DNA of 64,000 nt, taken from contig NC_060112.1 in the NCBI RefSeq assembly GCF_021155765.1, positions 1,364,001 through 1,428,000 of the forward strand, in the 5' to 3' direction. Below the pieces are notes generated by a model. It had not been told where the DNA came from. It did no database searches and was given only the letters and a program-made list of their open reading frames with translations. Within the stretch, counting starts at the first letter, position 1; the number at the start of each line of letters is the position of its first letter. Below, piece by piece: positions 707-53,500 of the stretch. The stretch comes from Diprion similis (lineage: Eukaryota; Arthropoda; Insecta; Hymenoptera; Diprionidae). A program made the position numbers and the translations under genes.

Positions 707-4207
<3,501 letters not shown>

Positions 4208-35436: not shown

Positions 35437-38400
35437 CTAAAGGCTCAATGCCTGCATTTGATGAGTGCAATCGCTGATTTGGTTTTGATCACCACCGGAA
35501 TGTCCCCCAGTGTGAGTGTTCCTCGGGGTACCAGGCGGGGTAATCGGCATGCGACCGACACCAGGCGGCGCGTCACCTGCTCCCCCCAAGCTATCGTCAC
35601 CAGATTTACTGCCCGACTGCATCATGCCGTTAGGCTTATACTTGTGCTGTCGCAGCATCGAGCTCTGTGCCGGAGCGGTTGAATATTTTTCTGAAGGCTT
35701 CCTCCCCGCTGGCAGAGGCGGTGCAACTGTGTACCGCCGCTGCGCCGGTTGTTGTTGATGTTGATGTTGATGTTGTTGTTGTTGTTGCTGCTGCTGCTGA
35801 TGTCCAGGCGTGTTGCTGGACGGCACAGTCGTCTGGTAACGGTTTTGAGCCGGAGCGTAGAACTGGACCTGAGGAACGGGAGGCGAAAGGTTTGGGAGAG
35901 GACGAGTCATGGGTGAGTAAGGGGCGGGTGGTGGACTGGACGACTTTTCGGAAACGATCGTCGTGCTCGAGGTCGTTGTAGTTTCTGTGGAGTTATCAAC
36001 GTTTTGCGAATCCGATTGCGCACCGTACTTTTCCCCGGTCTGACCGTTGCTACAGTTGTTATTGTCCAAGATCACCCGTTTAGCCGTGCCACTAGTCCGA
36101 CCCGCGGCGGCTTGATTTTTATGCGAATAATTTCTCGACGACCTCGAATTGTTACCGCCGCCCTCGAAATACTGATCGGTACCGTAGTTCTGATGACCGA
36201 CGGTCAACTTTTGAGATCCCGGATAATTCAGACCGTTCAAAACCACACCCGTCGTCGGACCAAACACCATTGACTTGAAAGAGCCGTATCCCGACCTTTG
36301 ACCTGAGAAGTAAGCCGCTTGGCCGGCGTTGGCGCACAATGATCGCTTGGCGAGTTGATGTTGAGGAGGAAAATGAGTCGTTGACAAAACGTTGCTTGTG
36401 AGTTTGTGAAAGTCCGACGCGTTCGCGTACTTCTGACCCTGCGTCGACGAACCGTGAAGCTTACCGTGATTGTGAACACCGGAGGATGAGGAGATCAATG
36501 CGATGCTCAAATTTTGTGACTTGACGTTATAGCTGCCCTGCGCCCCGGCTACGACCGCCTTCGAATAGTCGCGCTGATGCGAGACGATGCTTTGCAATTT
36601 TGGATTAACGGTGGACTGAACGGAGCGATGATGGTGGTGGTGGTGATGATGATGGGATGATGCAGACGTCGGCGTCGGCAGAAGGCTAGGACCTCTCGAC
36701 GAAGACGGATGATATTGAGATGACGAATGGGTGTGAGGAATGTAGACGGCTGCTGGATGATAGACAATCGTTCTACAGTGCATCTGAGCTACGCTACCGG
36801 CGTCGCCCGCGTCTGCGTTATCGCTTAAGCATGTCTGCGAACCGTGTAAATTGGTGGTATGAATCGCGACTGGATGGTGATAGCTGCCTGGATATCTATT
36901 AGTAATTGGGAATTTAATGGGCACCAAAGGAACCAGCGGTGTCACTGAACCAGACGTATCGCCGTGCTGCGGCTGTTCAGAGTGGCTTGACGTCGACCGA
37001 GAATCCTACGTTTTTATTCAATTTTTTCGTTAACTCACATCAGTTTTGTTCTCATTAATACAATTCATCTAGCGCTATAGAAATGACCTCTCATTTCATT
37101 CGTCATCAAGGTCCAACATGCTCAAGAAAAAAAAAACTGTCCAATCATCAGGGAATACTAAAGGTAAACAGTAAAATAGTAAAAACTTGCAAAAGTGTAT
37201 AGACAAGGAAATGACGCGTGAGGCAATTCTAAAACACTATCTTGTTCAATCTGCTACAAATCTTGAACGGTTATCTTACCTCCTGCGGCTGTGCCTGAGT
37301 GTCGTTTGATTGTTGAGATTGACATGAACCGTCCGTCGCGTACAACAGTAACTGCTGATCGGTGAGGCCTATCGAAGCGTGTGACGGCGGCAGAGGCGGA
37401 GGTCCAGCAGTGCACGAGTAGTACACGTGATCAAACTGTGACTGCGGAGGGCCGGCGGGTATCTGGGGATGATGATGAGGCGGCGGGGCTGCTGAGGTGT
37501 AAAAATGTTGCGGCTGCGGCGGGGCTGGAAGAGACGTGAGAGCAGGCGGAGGGCCAGCCGGTGGACTGGTAGCTCCGTTTGTACCGCCCCCGGAACCCGT
37601 TCCCCCGCCATTAGTAGTGCTCTGAGAGCTACTAGCCGTGTACAGGTACTGAGGCGCGCCGGCCGCCGTTGCCCCTGTGTAATATGGCTCGTACTGTAAG
37701 TATAAATAAATGTATTTCTCGGGGGAACACAATAGAAGTACTTGAGGAATATACACAAGCATCACAAGGATCGCTACGAACCTTCAATGAGTTCTGTACA
37801 TGGCATTGAACACTTGAAATTTTTCAACTTCGTAGCGACCCAGATTTCCTTGTTCATTTATCCCATTATTTATTCTATTAAGTTTTTGAGACAGTTAATT
37901 TGAAAAAAGATATCAAACTGTCGTTTGCTTTGGTCACATGCAACGTGAGATAAAGTAGAAGTGTACAATGGCAAATAATGTATTAAAATAATAACAAATA
38001 AAATATTGTAATTGTAGCTAATATGCATAGTTTTGCAAGATTGATCAAATTAACACCCCCCCCCAAAAAACATTTAAATCTTGCTTGATCGTTAATTGAA
38101 TGCGAAGGAAACAAAAAAATATTGAGTCAAGGCAGTTAAGTTGATGTACGATAGTGGTCGGAATATCTAAAACGAAACATAAGAAATCGTAGCTCGAATC
38201 TTTGCAAGATTTGTTATTTGACATTGGAGGAATAGTGAAATGTTGAAGTGAGAGTAAAAAACGATGTGTAACGAGAAGAAAAAAAAAAAAAATTTGATAG
38301 TTTCAAGACGAAGCAGTGTTAACAAGAGTTCGGGTGTTAGGAATAATGCGAAAATACTGAAATATTGCATTTCGAAGATGATTTAGGAATAAAAAAAAAA

Positions 38401-41269: not shown

Positions 41270-42082
41270 CTTCCCGAGGATTCAGCAGTGTTTGTGTTGG
41301 TAGGCAGAAGTCCGAGATTATCGGGAGGTCCCCTGGCTTCGCGGGATGTCACCTGGATGCCCAGGGACTGCCAAGGACCGCTAGGAGGATTTCAAAAGGA
41401 CTCCCAGCCTCTGGCGAAGCTCCTGTTCTTCGCAGAACCTCCAAACACCACACAGAACCACTTTTACAAGATGGCGACCCGCGCGCCCACTTTTGATCAA
41501 TTTGAATCAAATGCGCAAAACAATATAAGCGGTGGTGTACTAAATCGTGTGAAATATTCGGAAACTTGAACCACCCTGTTGCACGATTGAAACTGAATTC
41601 ATCCTCATACCGTCGATAAATATTCAGATCGATTAATTTGGGATATTATCTTCTTTATTATGATTATTTTTTTCTTAGATATCTTTTTTCTCTTCGATTT
41701 GTTTTTGTGTCAGCCTTTACTGTACTGGCCTGCGCGAATGTGTATTATCGTCGATGCGTGCGTAAGTCATCTACACGTATGTCGTACGAACGTAAACGCG
41801 CACACGCCACTTTAAGAAAAATAGAATATTCGATTTTACGTCGACAGTAGAGCACGCGGGTGTATAGAGGAGAAAATTAATTGGTTACGTTCGACGTGAG
41901 ATAATTATACGCTAGTAATTGCTACCGAAATACTGTCATGTACGAAGTTATAAAATCTACGAATAGAAGAAAACAAAAAATAGGTAGTGTCATTGATGAA
42001 ATTTCGAAAATTCAACACGGCAGCAACTCCGCTAGATCCTACGCTCTTGTTCCAATTTGTAAATAAATTTTTCGATTGCTTG
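41270..42082. promoter_or_regulatory. Boule 5' UTR and promoter region
   Basis: Upstream of the proposed boule ATG exon. The sequence around 41270-41500 is richer in GC than its surroundings and includes AAGATGGCG near 41469, a motif common near metazoan transcription starts. Beyond ~41570 it is plain AT-rich spacer. Confidence 0.4.
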
Positions 42083-42092
42083 ACATAATACA

Positions 42093-42959
42093 CACGGACT
42101 TAGGAAATAGAGAGACGGAGCATAACGCTTGTGGGTTGAAGCGTTAGACGTAAGGGGGGAACTCACGTAGCGCCGCCTACTGTGAGCATGAACTATCCAT
42201 CAAAACAATAAAAACCACCGTGTCGAGCGAATTTCTAACCTCTCGAACACGAATAGAATAGTGAAAATGGTGCTATGGGTAGCGAAAAATTGTTTCAACA
42301 GATCATCGCATAAATCGGTACTCCAAAATAAAATCGAAAACAATAAAAAAAAATTACATCCCACAAGTTGGATGTTGACCATTCAGTTCAGTTGAAAATT
42401 AAATATCATGTAATAAATGTATAATGTATTACTGTACTACCTAGATATTACTCTAATCGATCTTTTAGATTCCCGAAAGATGTTACAATTCGACAGATGT
42501 GGCTCAATAATATGAGATTATTTGAAGCTTTATTACCACCCACTCTATTTCTGCGTTTGACTCACTTTTCAGAAGAAGCATTTGATAGGACATCAGTCAA
42601 TATGATTCAATTGAAACCAGGCAGTATTCCTCAGGTTAAAATAATATTTTGCCAACCACGAATATAATTGATTTCATATTATTTATGCATCTATTGACCT
42701 ATGAGTTTGAATTGAACAGATACAGTTGAGACTCTCTCCACGGACTCATCATTTTTCGCTACCGTTCTTTTATCCTATATTTCAGTAGTCAGGCACCCAT
42801 TGACACATCTTTGAATATAGCGCGCGAACTGCTCACAGGGCATGGCTGCCATGCGTGGTTGCATATCGTCTGTGTGCTATTCCCCCCTTCCGTCCCGCGC
42901 GTCACTCCATCGCCCACATTATTAGCTTATGCTCCGTCCCTTTATTTCCTAAGTCCGTG
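42093..42959. mobile_element. Non-autonomous TIR element carrying THAP-domain remnants
   Basis: The terminal inverted repeats are 33 bases with 31 matching: left 42093-42125 starts CACGGACTTAGGAAATA, right 42927-42959 ends TATTTCCTAAGTCCGTG. The 10-base sequence ACATAATACA lies directly outside both ends (42083-42092 and 42960-42969), a clean target-site duplication. Inside, on the + strand, are two fragments of a THAP zinc finger. THAP domains sit at the N-terminus of P-element-type transposases, whose insertions make 8-base duplications; the 10-base repeat could be 8 plus two chance matches. No transposase catalytic region is present in the 867 bp, so it could only have moved with help from elsewhere. 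Confidence 0.85.
42267..42634 (+). pseudogene. Decayed THAP zinc-finger sequence (two exon-like pieces)
   Basis: Piece 1 begins with an ATG at 42267 and reads MVLWVAKNCFNRSSHK, which matches a THAP start (M-V-x-C-x4-C-x-N-R) except that the first zinc Cys is Trp (TGG, 42276-42278). Piece 2, from an acceptor-like TTTTAG at 42463-42468 to a donor-like CAG|GT at 42634, reads FPKDVTIRQMWLNNMR, then LTHFSEEAFDRT and QLKPGSIPQ. These are the conserved FP..., W, HF..F and L.PGA.P positions of THAP. The Cys expected three residues before the HF is Arg (CGT, 42554-42556), one transition from TGT. Two of four zinc ligands are lost, so it should not bind zinc. I could not join the two pieces in phase with good splice sites. 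Confidence 0.7.
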
Positions 42960-42969
42960 ACATAATACA

Positions 42970-47574: not shown

Positions 47575-50500
47575 TCAAGGCCGTGATCCTCGCGCAGCTT
47601 CTTCCAAAGCGCGTACCTTTAACTCACGTTCGCGTTGTTGCCTAGAAAGAGATGGGAAAAAAAAAAAAAAAAAAAAGCGAACAAAAAAAACGTATTTTAT
47701 TAATTTGGAATCAGGAGAATAACATTTTGTTTCTTGCGTCAAGGATTGATCGCTAATTATTAATAGGAATAAGAGGTACGATTTTTTCTTACAACACAAA
47801 CCTTAGGTAGTCTTCATGATGGGCAACAAATGAAGGATGATGAGGATAACGTTCACGCTCCATCATCAAGTGACGCTGAAGCTGTTCCTGATGCACAGCC
47901 ATTTCCGCGTAGGGTCGACCAAGGAGATCGGCAGGATGCAGGCCTAGCGAGGGATCGCGAGACATCAGTCCTGGCCTGGGGTAATTGGCGCCAGCGGCGG
48001 CTGCGTGAAACAAAAATGAAATAATTCGATTGTAGAGCGAGGACCAAATTCAGGAAGAAATATGTTACGATTAATAATTCGACGACATGAGGGGGGAGTT
48101 GGCGAGGGTAGGTCGTTTCTGTTCTGTGAATGTTGTTGTACAATTTGAATAAATACTAATGATAATATTACATGATTAGGATTAAGACGCGGGCTGAAAT
48201 TTTGAGAAATTCGACACGGGATAGAGATTTGTTTGTTAACTAACGTCGAAGATCCTATCACCTACCAGGCAGGGGGAATCCAGCGGCAGCAGCAGCTGCT
48301 TCCTGCTGTTGCTGAGCCTGTTGCTGAGCGGCCTGCTGCTGTCCCGGATGTAGGTGCAAGTGAGTGTGCGCGTGCGTATGCGCGTGAGTGTGAGCGTGAT
48401 ACTCGGGCGAGATGCCAGCCATCTGCAACCGGACCATCGGGTCAGCAGCCAGAGCCAGCCGCTCGTCCAGCTGGCCGTGGTGGTGAGCTGGATGACCACC
48501 CCCTCCCCCTGCTGGCCCCCCGCCGGCTGCCGTCGGTATCCCTAAACCCGACAGCGCCTCCGTGAAATAACCCTACTCACTGGTTTTATGGGGGTGGAAA
48601 TAAGGGAGCTCGGAAATTCCAACTCATCGTCATATTTCCAATATTGATCATCAATTTCTGATCCAATTCTGTGTGTTTATCACAATTCGATACAAGGGTG
48701 GGAATTTCATTTACAGATACTTCAAGGAAACACATTTCTTTGAGACTTAATTGGTAACTCGATTACGCCAAAAGAGTTAGTTTCCCTTCAAATGCGGCAT
48801 GTCGGTTTCAAGTCACATCACATAGCTATCAACAACCCGGATCTCTACAAAGCTATAGATGTAAAAAGACAAGTGAAACAGACTTTTCACAAGACTTTAT
48901 AATACGTATGCATAAACATTTACAGATTCAAGCTTTAATTATCAATAAAGTATTTTTCCAAAGACTACTAAAACTGATAATTGTTGATAATATATCGATT
49001 GCTTCGATTGAAACAACATGAATCAAGGCAACGGTAGCAATTGCTAATAAAATATTAATTTCCTTCAAAAACGTGATTTGAATATTATTTAACTGCCTGA
49101 AACCTGAAACCTTATCTACTACACATGTAGACTATTGTACTACTACTACTACTGGAAATTATTATGTATGTACATACATCACATCCAAGGGGGTATATAC
49201 GTCTCGAAAGGATATATGTTTCACAACAAGCGTGTCCAAAGTGAATGTGGTAATAACGAAGTTTGATAACGCATAAAATCTATGGAAATCTCATTGCAAA
49301 ATATTCCTTTGAGGCACACGAGTCTTCCAAACACAATTTCTAACGAGATGTTTATATCTTGACTGATTCTTCAACAACGGCAAATCAATTTCAAACCTCA
49401 GTGTCTTTTTTCAGCATAGGTAACTAATTGATTACATTGCATTTTTTCATGCACTTTATTGAGATTTGGAAGCAAAGTTATGTGGACTTTAATGAAAATC
49501 GATCATGGATACACCTCTCTGATTGATCATTGGCGCAGTAAACGTCGCAAGATATTGTTTCCGCCACTTCAAAGAGCCACTGAGTTAGAAACAGAATGAT
49601 AAGAAAAATGTTTCGTACCTAATCGTTCTAGACGTTCCCTCTCCAGCTGGCTAGGACCTGGAGGAGCGCCGTAGAGACTGAACTGATGCAACGCTTGGGG
49701 AGGACCAGAGGGACCGGGACCAGCGAGACCAGCAGCAGCGGCGTATCGTCGATGCATTTCGAGCCAGTGCGGATCCACGCTGCCAGGTATGGACCTGGGG
49801 CCTCCCTTGAGCAGTTCCTCCTTGAACCTGTCGTTTAGTTCGCGATCTCTGAGTTCCCTGATTTCCCGCTCTCTCTTTTCCCGCTCCAGATGTTCCAATT
49901 CGAGGCGCTCTCTTGCTACTGGACCGTACATGTAGTGCAGCATCGGATCAGGTGGACCAGGATGCCTTGCCGGGGAAAACGCAGCGTGTGGTCTCGCGTA
50001 TTCGGACAACTGCCTGAGCGCCGGGGTGTCGACGTAAGATCCTGGCCTAGCCGCATAGCGGTCGTAAGGAGATACGACAGGTTCTAGAGGCCCTCGACTT
50101 GGTGGCTTGCAAGGCTCCGGCTGTTTCTCAGGAGTCGACATTTTTCTAACCTGTTGAGCAGCTGCTCTGTCTCGCTCCCTCTCCGCCTCACGTTCTCTTT
50201 CCTTCCTTGTTCTCTCCTCACGTTTTCTTGCCAATTTTGAATCCGGCACTGGTTTGAATGTGAGATCGGTCCTAGTGCAAGAATTATTTTCACCTCGATT
50301 CCAATGCCGGAGAAAAATAGCCGACTGAGATCTGTGACACTCGGAATCCTCCATCTGTGGCTCTGGTGATGGTCCTCGAGGACTCGGAGGCTCCTCAGGC
50401 TCAGGCTCCACCATTTCCGGCTCGGGTTTCGGCTCCGGCGGAATGGGAGGCTGCAGTTGAGGTGGACGATGATGATGGTGGACAGAGCTGCTGGACGTTA

Positions 50501-53500
50501 GACAGGCCGACACTAGAGCGGGCTTGCGTTGTTGGTTGTGAGAACTGTGCGAAGATTGGCTATGCGAATGGCTGTGCGAACTGTGTGAGGATATAGTCAG
50601 AAGTTTGTCGTGATGCAATGTCGTTGCCTGATGCATGCTGGACGAGTGATGATGCGTGGCGATCAAATTATCGCCCTCGTCTCTAGTAACACTGGAGCTG
50701 GTGCTCGAGTGATGAGCAGTCATCATTGTAGTGCTCTCTTGGCTTCGTTGTGGAGAAGGCGGCGGAATAGCGTGAGGAACTGGGCCGTATGGATAGGTGG
50801 GAAATGGGGGATACGATCCAACGGGCGGATAACCGGGGTAAGCCATTCCTCCGTGATGGTAGGGATGCATGGCTGCTAACAACGAGTGATGAATGAACGG
50901 GTGGTGAGGATGGAAGGGGTGAGCCATGTGTGGACTCGGCTGCTGAGAGGGATGCATCACTGGCTGCGGAATGGACGTCGGTGGCGGTGGCAAACTCGGA
51001 GTCGGGGAAGCGGCGACCGACTGAATCTGAGCAACCTGTTGGCTATTTTGCACCAGAGGGTGTTTGCTGGGCGTCGGAGGCTTGCTGGAACTGTCTGGAT
51101 CTTTCTTGATGTTGTCCAAACTTGGGCCGGGGAATCCAGTTTGAAATCCAGGGACTTTCACCTCCTTCAAGCTCTGCAACGGGTCGGGTTCGGGCGGAAT
51201 GATTTCCTGCTTTATCTTCAAATTCTGTGGCTCCATGGGGGGCGTGGGTACCAATGAGTAAGGCGCGATGGTCGGAGGCTTCTCCAAGGGCATCATACCC
51301 TGGGGTGGAGGAATTGATTGGAATAAATTCTGAGGCTCGGGTCTATCCAGTTCTCCGTTTCCGTCCTGTCGCTGCTCCTGCAGCCTATCTGACATTCTGT
51401 CAAGCATTCTGCTGTCCCTGTGTCTCTCCTGAGGCATTCTATCCTCTGGTATTCTCTCCGGCATTCTGATGTCGGGAGGTAAAACGGGCAGGCCTAAGGG
51501 CTGCGGCGAATTCGACAGTTGCGGTATCTGCGAAATGTTGGTGGAGAGGTTTTGAGGTATGCTAAGATTAAGCGAGGACGCAGACATGTTCTGCTGCATG
51601 CTGTGGGGATTTCCCATGCTTGGCGGGCCGACCATGTTCTGTGGGTTTCCCATGTTTTGAGGTAAATTTGACGGTACGTGTAGATTTTGGGATAAATTCT
51701 GCGGCACGTTTTGGCTTGCCAGTATATTCGGCGGGGGATGCTGCATGTTTAGGGGCATGACTTGCGGAGGTTGAGGAGGTACCTGAAGTGTCTGCAAGTT
51801 TTGCGCACAATTCTGCGTGCTCACCATACTGGTTTGCGATAAATTTCGTATACTTGGACCGATATCGCTGACGTTGTTCATTGGCTGCTGGTTGCCAGCA
51901 TTCATGGGCTGAATCATTTCCTTGGAATCTTCGACGACCGGCGACATGTTTCTCTCTATTTGAGGAAGCACCTCGACCAATTTCAAAGGCTGGTTCATCA
52001 TCATCGGCATTTCCTCCAACTGTTCTTTGGTCTCTGGCAATTCTTCTATGATCGGTTTCTTTTCTATTGCGTGAATAACCGGAACCGATATCGGTAAACT
52101 TTGAATGGGTGCCGGAACCGGCGTCGAAACTGGAGTCGGCTCCAGTGGTTCTTCCGGCGTGGTTAAAACGGGACTGGGAGGTTCGTCGACTTGGACGGTA
52201 ACCGGAACCGAATGATTATCGTTCGTTTCACCCTCGGTCTCCCGCTCGGGTTCATCCATTAACGAGTTACTGTCTGTAGTAAGAGATTCGGACGGACTTT
52301 CCGGCCTCTCGCCGCGTTTACGCTTTTGCAATTCCTTGTCCTCCTCAGGATCATCGGCTTGCGGACGTTTCTGTCCCTTCCTCGGCGTCTCTGATTTACC
52401 AGATGATTTTTTCTTCGTCTTGTCCGGAGTCTGTTGCTGCTGCTGTTTCTCCTGATCAGGTGTGTCAGTTCCACCGGCTCTCCTTGATCGTGCGGGTCTG
52501 GGCGTCTCTTTGGCCTTGTTGCGAGTTCTCATCCTGCCTGGACTGTCAGGAGATTCGGCCGGCACTGGGCGAAAGAGGTACGGAGGAGCAGGTGGAAGTT
52601 CTCCGGTTTTCTTTAAATGCGCGCGACATTCGGCGCAGAGTAATAGCCTGTCCTTACCGGCGATTTGGTAGTCTTTTGAACTGGTCGAAAAGCAATGTTG
52701 ACAGGATTGCGCAGTTCCGTTTGTATTCGTGTCCCTGGAATCACTGTCCTCTTCCGAATTATCATCTTCCGTAACCGAGCTGACTTCACCACCTGGATTA
52801 TTGCTGGCTGGCGTGCCGACAGGTGCTGTCTCTGGTTCGGACGCCGGCTCCTTGGGGTTCGGCGCTGCGGGAGAAGTGTCTTTTGTCGGGGTTGGTATCT
52901 CCTCTTTGGGAGTACCAGCCCGAGAGTTACGGGTGTTGCGAATTCTGCGCAATGAACCCTGCCTGCGTCGCCTGTGGGGTCGATTATTATTCGCGCCAGG
53001 CGTCTTCTTCCACAGGTAGTAGAACTCAACTAGTTCAGGCTAAATGGACCAAAAAATTCCCAACATAAAACAGTTTTCACAATTTGTTTTTCATTTCTTT
53101 TTACCAACTATTGTACGCGTCTCAAATTACTAGTCCACATTTTCATAATCACCGTATCTTTGTGAGGCAGTAAATCCTTCCTGATGCGGAAGAAATTCTT
53201 TCCAAACTGACGAAGACCCTTTACAAAACGTTTCTGTAATGGAGAACATTGCGTTATTTATCAAGTATCGATCTTCGATTATTCTGTTCTACATAATCAC
53301 GCCTCGACAATATACTCACAGTTTCTTCCTCGGACCACTTTTTGTCGATCCCTTTGGGTACGGGACATTTGACTAGTGCTTGAAGTGCCCTGCCAGGGTC
53401 ATAGCCAGAGTCATGTAAAATGTCCAGAGCGTTGATCGTGGTGTCGTCGCGAGAGGCAGCTACACAACCATCATCGGGAGATCCGCCGTCACACATTCCT

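Follow-up and report, generated by a model that had tools for sequence, protein, structure and literature searches.

A probable internal-deletion derivative of a P-superfamily transposon that retains decayed THAP exons

In Drosophila, P-element derivatives of the KP kind are presented, in the parts of the literature dealing with them, as repressors, or as putative ones where they have kept the DNA-binding domain (PMC7776569, PMC12393704). THAP is introduced in the sections concerned as a C2CH zinc finger (PMC7776569, PMC3688188), and the lengths given there for the terminal inverted repeats of P elements are 31 bp in D. melanogaster, 27-31 bp in Anopheles (PMC1562414) and 13 bp in zebrafish (PMC7776569).

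Here we analyzed an 867-bp element (42093-42959) within a window of 64 kb, i.e., the whole stretch of DNA under study (C8:1364001-1428000 of a 269-Mb assembly). We assume, with a probability of about 94%, that it derives from a low-copy transposon of the P superfamily (THAP9-like) by an old internal deletion, that it decayed without visible constraint and that it is probably inert now. The inverted ends typical of the P superfamily are present and complementary at 94% of their positions (Table 1). A direct repeat, TGACATAATACA, is found at 42081-42092 and 42958-42969, and since the inverted repeat finishes with the TG of the right copy, a flank repeat of 10/10 is left. The original prediction of an 867-bp element with 33-bp ends and a perfect 10-bp duplication was confirmed in this respect, and the element is real and not a product of chance. 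A pattern of the 33-bp end (N in place of the two bases that differ between the ends of the window copy, up to three mismatches allowed) has seven matches genome-wide, all within the four loci described below, and the reversed control pattern has none. The pre-insertion (empty) site would read TTGACATAATACAATAACGG. The nearest open frames of at least 130 amino acids are both located on the minus strand, at 35437-37783, with no match in Pfam, and at 49569-53039, with a match to the Atrophin-1 family in Pfam.

Table 1. Positions of the element's parts in the window and of the related copies elsewhere in the genome.
Feature	Position	Strand	Remarks
Left flanking duplication ACATAATACA	42083..42092	.	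10/10; may be 8-bp ACATAATA followed by an additional CA adjacent to that of the element
Left terminal inverted repeat	42093..42125	+	33 bp, 31/33; similar ends in both long copies (C10, C14)
THAP exon 1 remnant (MVLWVAKNCFNRSSHKS...)	42267..42366	+	Alignment with C10 and C14 copies; limits inferred
First zinc-ligand Cys codon	42276..42278	+	TGG (Trp) in window; TGT in both long copies
THAP exon 2 remnant (FPKDVTIRQMW...FLRLTHFSEEAF...)	42469..42634	+	Pfam THAP and alignment; limits inferred
Third zinc-ligand Cys codon	42554..42556	+	CGT (Arg) in window; TGT in both long copies
Internal-deletion junction (AG then ATACAG)	42718..42725	+	Alignment with C10 copy
Right terminal inverted repeat	42927..42959	-	33 bp
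Right flanking duplication ACATAATACA	42960..42969	.	10/10 with left
Long copy C10	C10:1033018-1036846		3,829 bp; both ends
Long copy C14	C14:1615082-1618513		3,432 bp; both ends
Solo right end	C10:1816264-1816502		Without THAP sequence

A DNA search of the genome, in which the query comprised the element plus both flank repeats, revealed four loci of this family, namely the window copy, two long copies on C10 and C14 and a solo right end; counts of repeats from the genome search are to be read as lower bounds. The window copy is about 9-12% diverged from its relatives, and blastn revealed no second stretch of the family in the 64-kb window. A shorter pattern of 20 bp with up to three mismatches matched 22 times vs 13 times for its reversed control. 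The three best places beyond the four known loci are located on C7, C2 and C9 (1, 2 and 2 mismatches), and each consists of an isolated end-like stretch of 20-29 bp with no second end (up to five mismatches, 6-7 kb), and in none of them did blastn reveal an internal match to either the window element or the C10 copy. The lone stretch at C9:8749456 (L064:2456-2484; 29 bp, 26/29 to the end of the family, no second end nearby) may be what is left of another related family.

The long relatives, for which a search with the 33-bp ends had been proposed, provide the coding content. In the C10 copy, whose open pieces were searched separately, THAP (41.1 bits), the HTH of Tnp_P_element (PF12017), a TNP-like RNaseH_N, a GTP-binding domain (GBD), RNaseH_C and THAP9_C all scored above the Pfam cut-off (THAP, PF12017, PF21787, PF21788, PF21789 and PF22824), which identifies a transposase of the P superfamily; the window copy has only the THAP part of this set. 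The view of the element as a non-autonomous derivative of P type that kept the DNA-binding half therefore stands, with the catalytic part lost. Both long copies are broken as well: the main frame of the C10 copy contains three in-frame stops within 3169-5406 of L009, the transposase frame of the C14 copy is also split into several pieces, and an intact transposase of the family was not found in the assembly. A 397-amino-acid piece of the C10 transposase matched 66 places in the genome with a best identity of 48% beyond the family, indicating that other P-type families are present, some of them with long open frames.

Alignment of the window copy with the C10 copy revealed matches to positions 1-636 (88.8%) and 3587-3829 (90.9%), so that the element corresponds to the first ~0.63 kb and the last ~0.24 kb of the long copy. 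The motif ATACAG is located at both breakpoints in the C10 copy (631 and 3587, ~2.95 kb apart) and occurs once in the window copy, in which everything but one or two bases at the junction derives from P. Together, the match at both ends and the position of ATACAG argue for a P-superfamily transposon shortened by an internal deletion. At the junction the fit is slightly imperfect, with AG beside ATACAG in the window copy vs T in the left parent sequence, which calls for a second small change. Short matching stretches are common at the breakpoints of internal deletions in P elements. A relative of ~3.8 kb would thus have lost ~2.95 kb between two such stretches, as the alignment indicates, probably when an excision was repaired by incomplete copying, as in Drosophila P, and would have kept its two termini together with the 5' part that holds the two THAP exons. 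Since a single copy with this deletion was recovered, the deleted form may never have moved, and the deletion could have arisen in place.

Two pieces of a THAP domain had been predicted inside the element, and both are present. The second was recovered by Pfam (42425-42664, 30.0 bits at a cut-off of 23.9; 41.1 bits in the C10 and 30.4 bits in the C14 copy), and the first, MVLWVAKNC..., has no Pfam THAP match on its own, like the corresponding piece of the C10 copy; it was recognized solely by its alignment with the matching stretch of both long copies. All three two-ended copies carry THAP sequence at the same place and in the same order, which indicates that THAP is ancestral and was not captured. 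A chance capture, for which copies with the same ends and no THAP sequence had been suggested as a sign, was rejected on the ground of this shared position; the only family locus of that kind is the solo right end.

The state of the THAP exons bears on the idea that a truncated THAP product binds the ends of the family and competes with the transposase, and that the copy was kept for this reason. The architecture fits such a KP-like repressor, with the DNA-binding part present and the catalytic part deleted, and Drosophila P derivatives of similar shape are, in the passages devoted to them, repressors or putative repressors (PMC7776569, PMC12393704). Against this, two of the four ligands of the C2CH zinc finger are lost (Cys to Trp and Cys to Arg). 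The window copy reads MVLWVAKNC and FLRLTHF, whereas both long copies have MVLCAAKNC, followed by FLCLTHF (C10) or FLCSTHF (C14). In two sister families, C-x4-C and C-x2-H are kept as well (MPHCLAKDC and FLCSYHF in L024, MPYCVAPNC and YLCSCHF in L028), and the losses are therefore specific to the window copy. A phmmer comparison of the C10 THAP half with known structures gave weak matches to THAP2 (E 0.042) and THAP11 (E 0.17), and in the THAP2 alignment a Cys lost in the window copy falls on the Cys of FLCSKHF. The context of the splice donor of exon 1 is also damaged: the GT is kept at 42367-42368, with CAA/GTTGGA in the window copy vs CAG/GTGAGA and CAG/GTAAGA in the long copies. Exon 2 is followed by a donor-like site, CAG/GTTAAA, and then by an in-frame stop ending at 42667.

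Changes specific to the window copy, i.e., at positions where both long copies agree, with gap columns excluded and exon limits within two bases of those in Table 1, affect 16 of 260 exon columns (8/98 in exon 1, 8/162 in exon 2) vs 28 of 598 columns elsewhere (including the inverted ends), so that their share is not lower inside the exons than outside them. Classified by hand, ten of the 16 exon changes alter the amino acid, four are silent and two were left unclassed, as they are located beyond a run of A at which the copies diverge in frame. Judged from these substitutions, the THAP exons of the window copy show no sign of constraint, with the small number of 16 changes to be kept in mind. 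Clean splicing from exon 1 to exon 2 was considered and rejected, because the aligned donor and acceptor, judged by eye in the frame of exon 2, are out of frame in 3/3 copies due to the variable length of the run of A in exon 1. As this applies to all three copies, an incorrect exon model, rather than decay of the window copy alone, may underlie the frame argument. Furthermore, only a single copy was found, and as both long copies are broken, the assembly contains no family member we could find to repress. A repressor retained for its function is therefore very improbable, and the suggestion that the element could supply a competitor for transposon ends finds no support in the window copy, with its two lost ligands and its exons that show no sign of constraint. 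The reading as a decayed deletion derivative instead implies later decay without visible constraint, in which two zinc ligands and the donor context were damaged; under the inferred exon limits, exon 1 also lies out of frame with exon 2. Most likely, the window copy now does nothing.

The 10-bp flank repeat is the one feature that agrees with the 8-bp rule of the relatives only with an added assumption. With regard to the 8-bp target-site duplication of the P superfamily, the C10 copy is flanked by GGGTGGCC with 8/8 matches, and the flanks of the C14 copy, GTGCATAC and GTGGATGC (6/8), are best read as a decayed 8-bp duplication; the 10/10 of the window copy can be read as 8+2 or as a true 10-bp duplication. 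For the sister families with the end CACGGACTTATGGACGGAGC we obtained 51 end matches (up to two mismatches) vs 2 for the reversed control. Ten end pairs, drawn from 18 of 30 loci fetched among these 51 matches, showed duplications of 8/8 in six cases, 7/8 in two and 6/8 in one and none (2/8) in one; a 10-bp duplication was found in 0 of the 10. In addition, an 8-bp duplication results for two other P-type copies, L029 and L030, when the ends may move by a few bases. If the window copy has an 8-bp duplication, ACATAATA, and a second CA at its left end next to the terminal CA of the element, a CA must follow the right copy by chance (local CA frequency ~0.06), and the flank repeat does match at 10/10. 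On the other hand, none of 11 other pairs (ten from sister families, one from the same family) shows 10 bp, and a doubling of CA is easy, since the element begins with CA. A true 10-bp duplication by an aberrant stagger at the window insertion, a side question separate from the odds of the main reading, is thus possible but somewhat doubtful. In a literature search on this point, none of the publications retrieved dealt, by its title or the beginning of its abstract, with odd duplication lengths of P elements, and we do not claim that they are unreported.

The original prediction took the 10-bp duplication as a hint of an unusual family, which did not stand up to the 8/8 of the C10 copy, the 6/8 of the C14 copy and the ten sister-family pairs without a 10-bp duplication. 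The same data bear on the assumption that the element belongs to another family, which duplicates 10 bp of its target and acquired a THAP fragment by chance. Apart from the 10/10 flank repeat, which would suit it, this assumption is contradicted by the common place and order of THAP in the three two-ended copies, by the 8/8 duplication of the C10 copy, by the 6/8 match of the C14 copy and by the full set of P transposase domains between the same ends in the C10 copy, and we consider it extremely improbable.

The genome is rich in P-type elements, with at least 121 THAP-domain stretches (E ≤0.001, any host THAP genes included) and 66 P-transposase stretches. Two of the six sister-family pairs with 8/8 are located on C3 and seem to derive from a single insertion through duplication in inverted orientation: the copies L024 (C3:18274752-18279603) and L025 (C3:18551902-18556888) are ~280 kb apart, and their flanks are reverse complements, including the 8-bp duplication. 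Either an inverted duplication carried a single insertion along, or the pair is an artefact of assembly. A sister element at C10:2165183-2170154 has perfect 20-bp ends and unmatched flanks (2/8), as expected if two insertions recombined or the flank was rearranged. A sister family also contains a short derivative of 975 bp, present in whole length at C2:2770136 (L034:1501-2475), C4:8218987 and C13:11289004, with the C4 and C13 copies 91-92% alike to the C2 copy. Its bases 1-690 and 687-907 match separated parts of a 4.75-kb stretch (C14:5017983-5022736), with a 4-bp overlap at the junction and the last 68 bases unmatched there. This internal deletion removes the second THAP exon, so that THAP exon 1 is kept at most, which is the opposite outcome to that of the window element after the same kind of event.

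A more elaborate course of events is conceivable, in which the deleted form arose during activity of the family, a then-intact THAP peptide helped to silence it and the copies decayed later, with a transposase that occasionally used a 10-bp stagger; we regard this as improbable. For a P-rich genome, our results provide a further low-copy family of the P superfamily, together with one deletion derivative of KP shape, and they illustrate that retained THAP exons alone are not equivalent to a usable DNA-binding domain. Beyond annotation little changes, as the element has the look of an ordinary fossil and not of a working repressor.

Like KP and other deleted P elements of Drosophila melanogaster, the window element retained ends and 5' THAP part, with inverted ends of ~31-33 bp, and lost the catalytic middle. 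In contrast to KP, it was found as a single copy, is ~9-12% diverged from its relatives, has lost two zinc ligands and is flanked by a repeat of 10 instead of 8 bp. The P elements and P-MITEs of Anopheles gambiae, as far as they are covered in the sections of PMC1562414 concerned, are similar in their inverted ends (there 27-31 bp), in long copies with THAP and transposase, in the low copy number of long families and in short derivatives with the ends of the parent. The P-MITEs differ, according to the same sections, by a centre without relation to P, by copy numbers of 44-571 and by duplications of 8 bp (PMC1562414), whereas the window copy is single and its interior, apart from the junction, derived from P. 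Finally, the zebrafish THAP9 transposon, in the account given in the pertinent part of PMC7776569, also combines internally deleted P-like copies with inverted ends and a long element of THAP9 type, to which the C10 copy corresponds in its match to THAP9_C; the zebrafish system differs in its 13-bp ends, 8-bp duplications and multiple deleted copies (PMC7776569).
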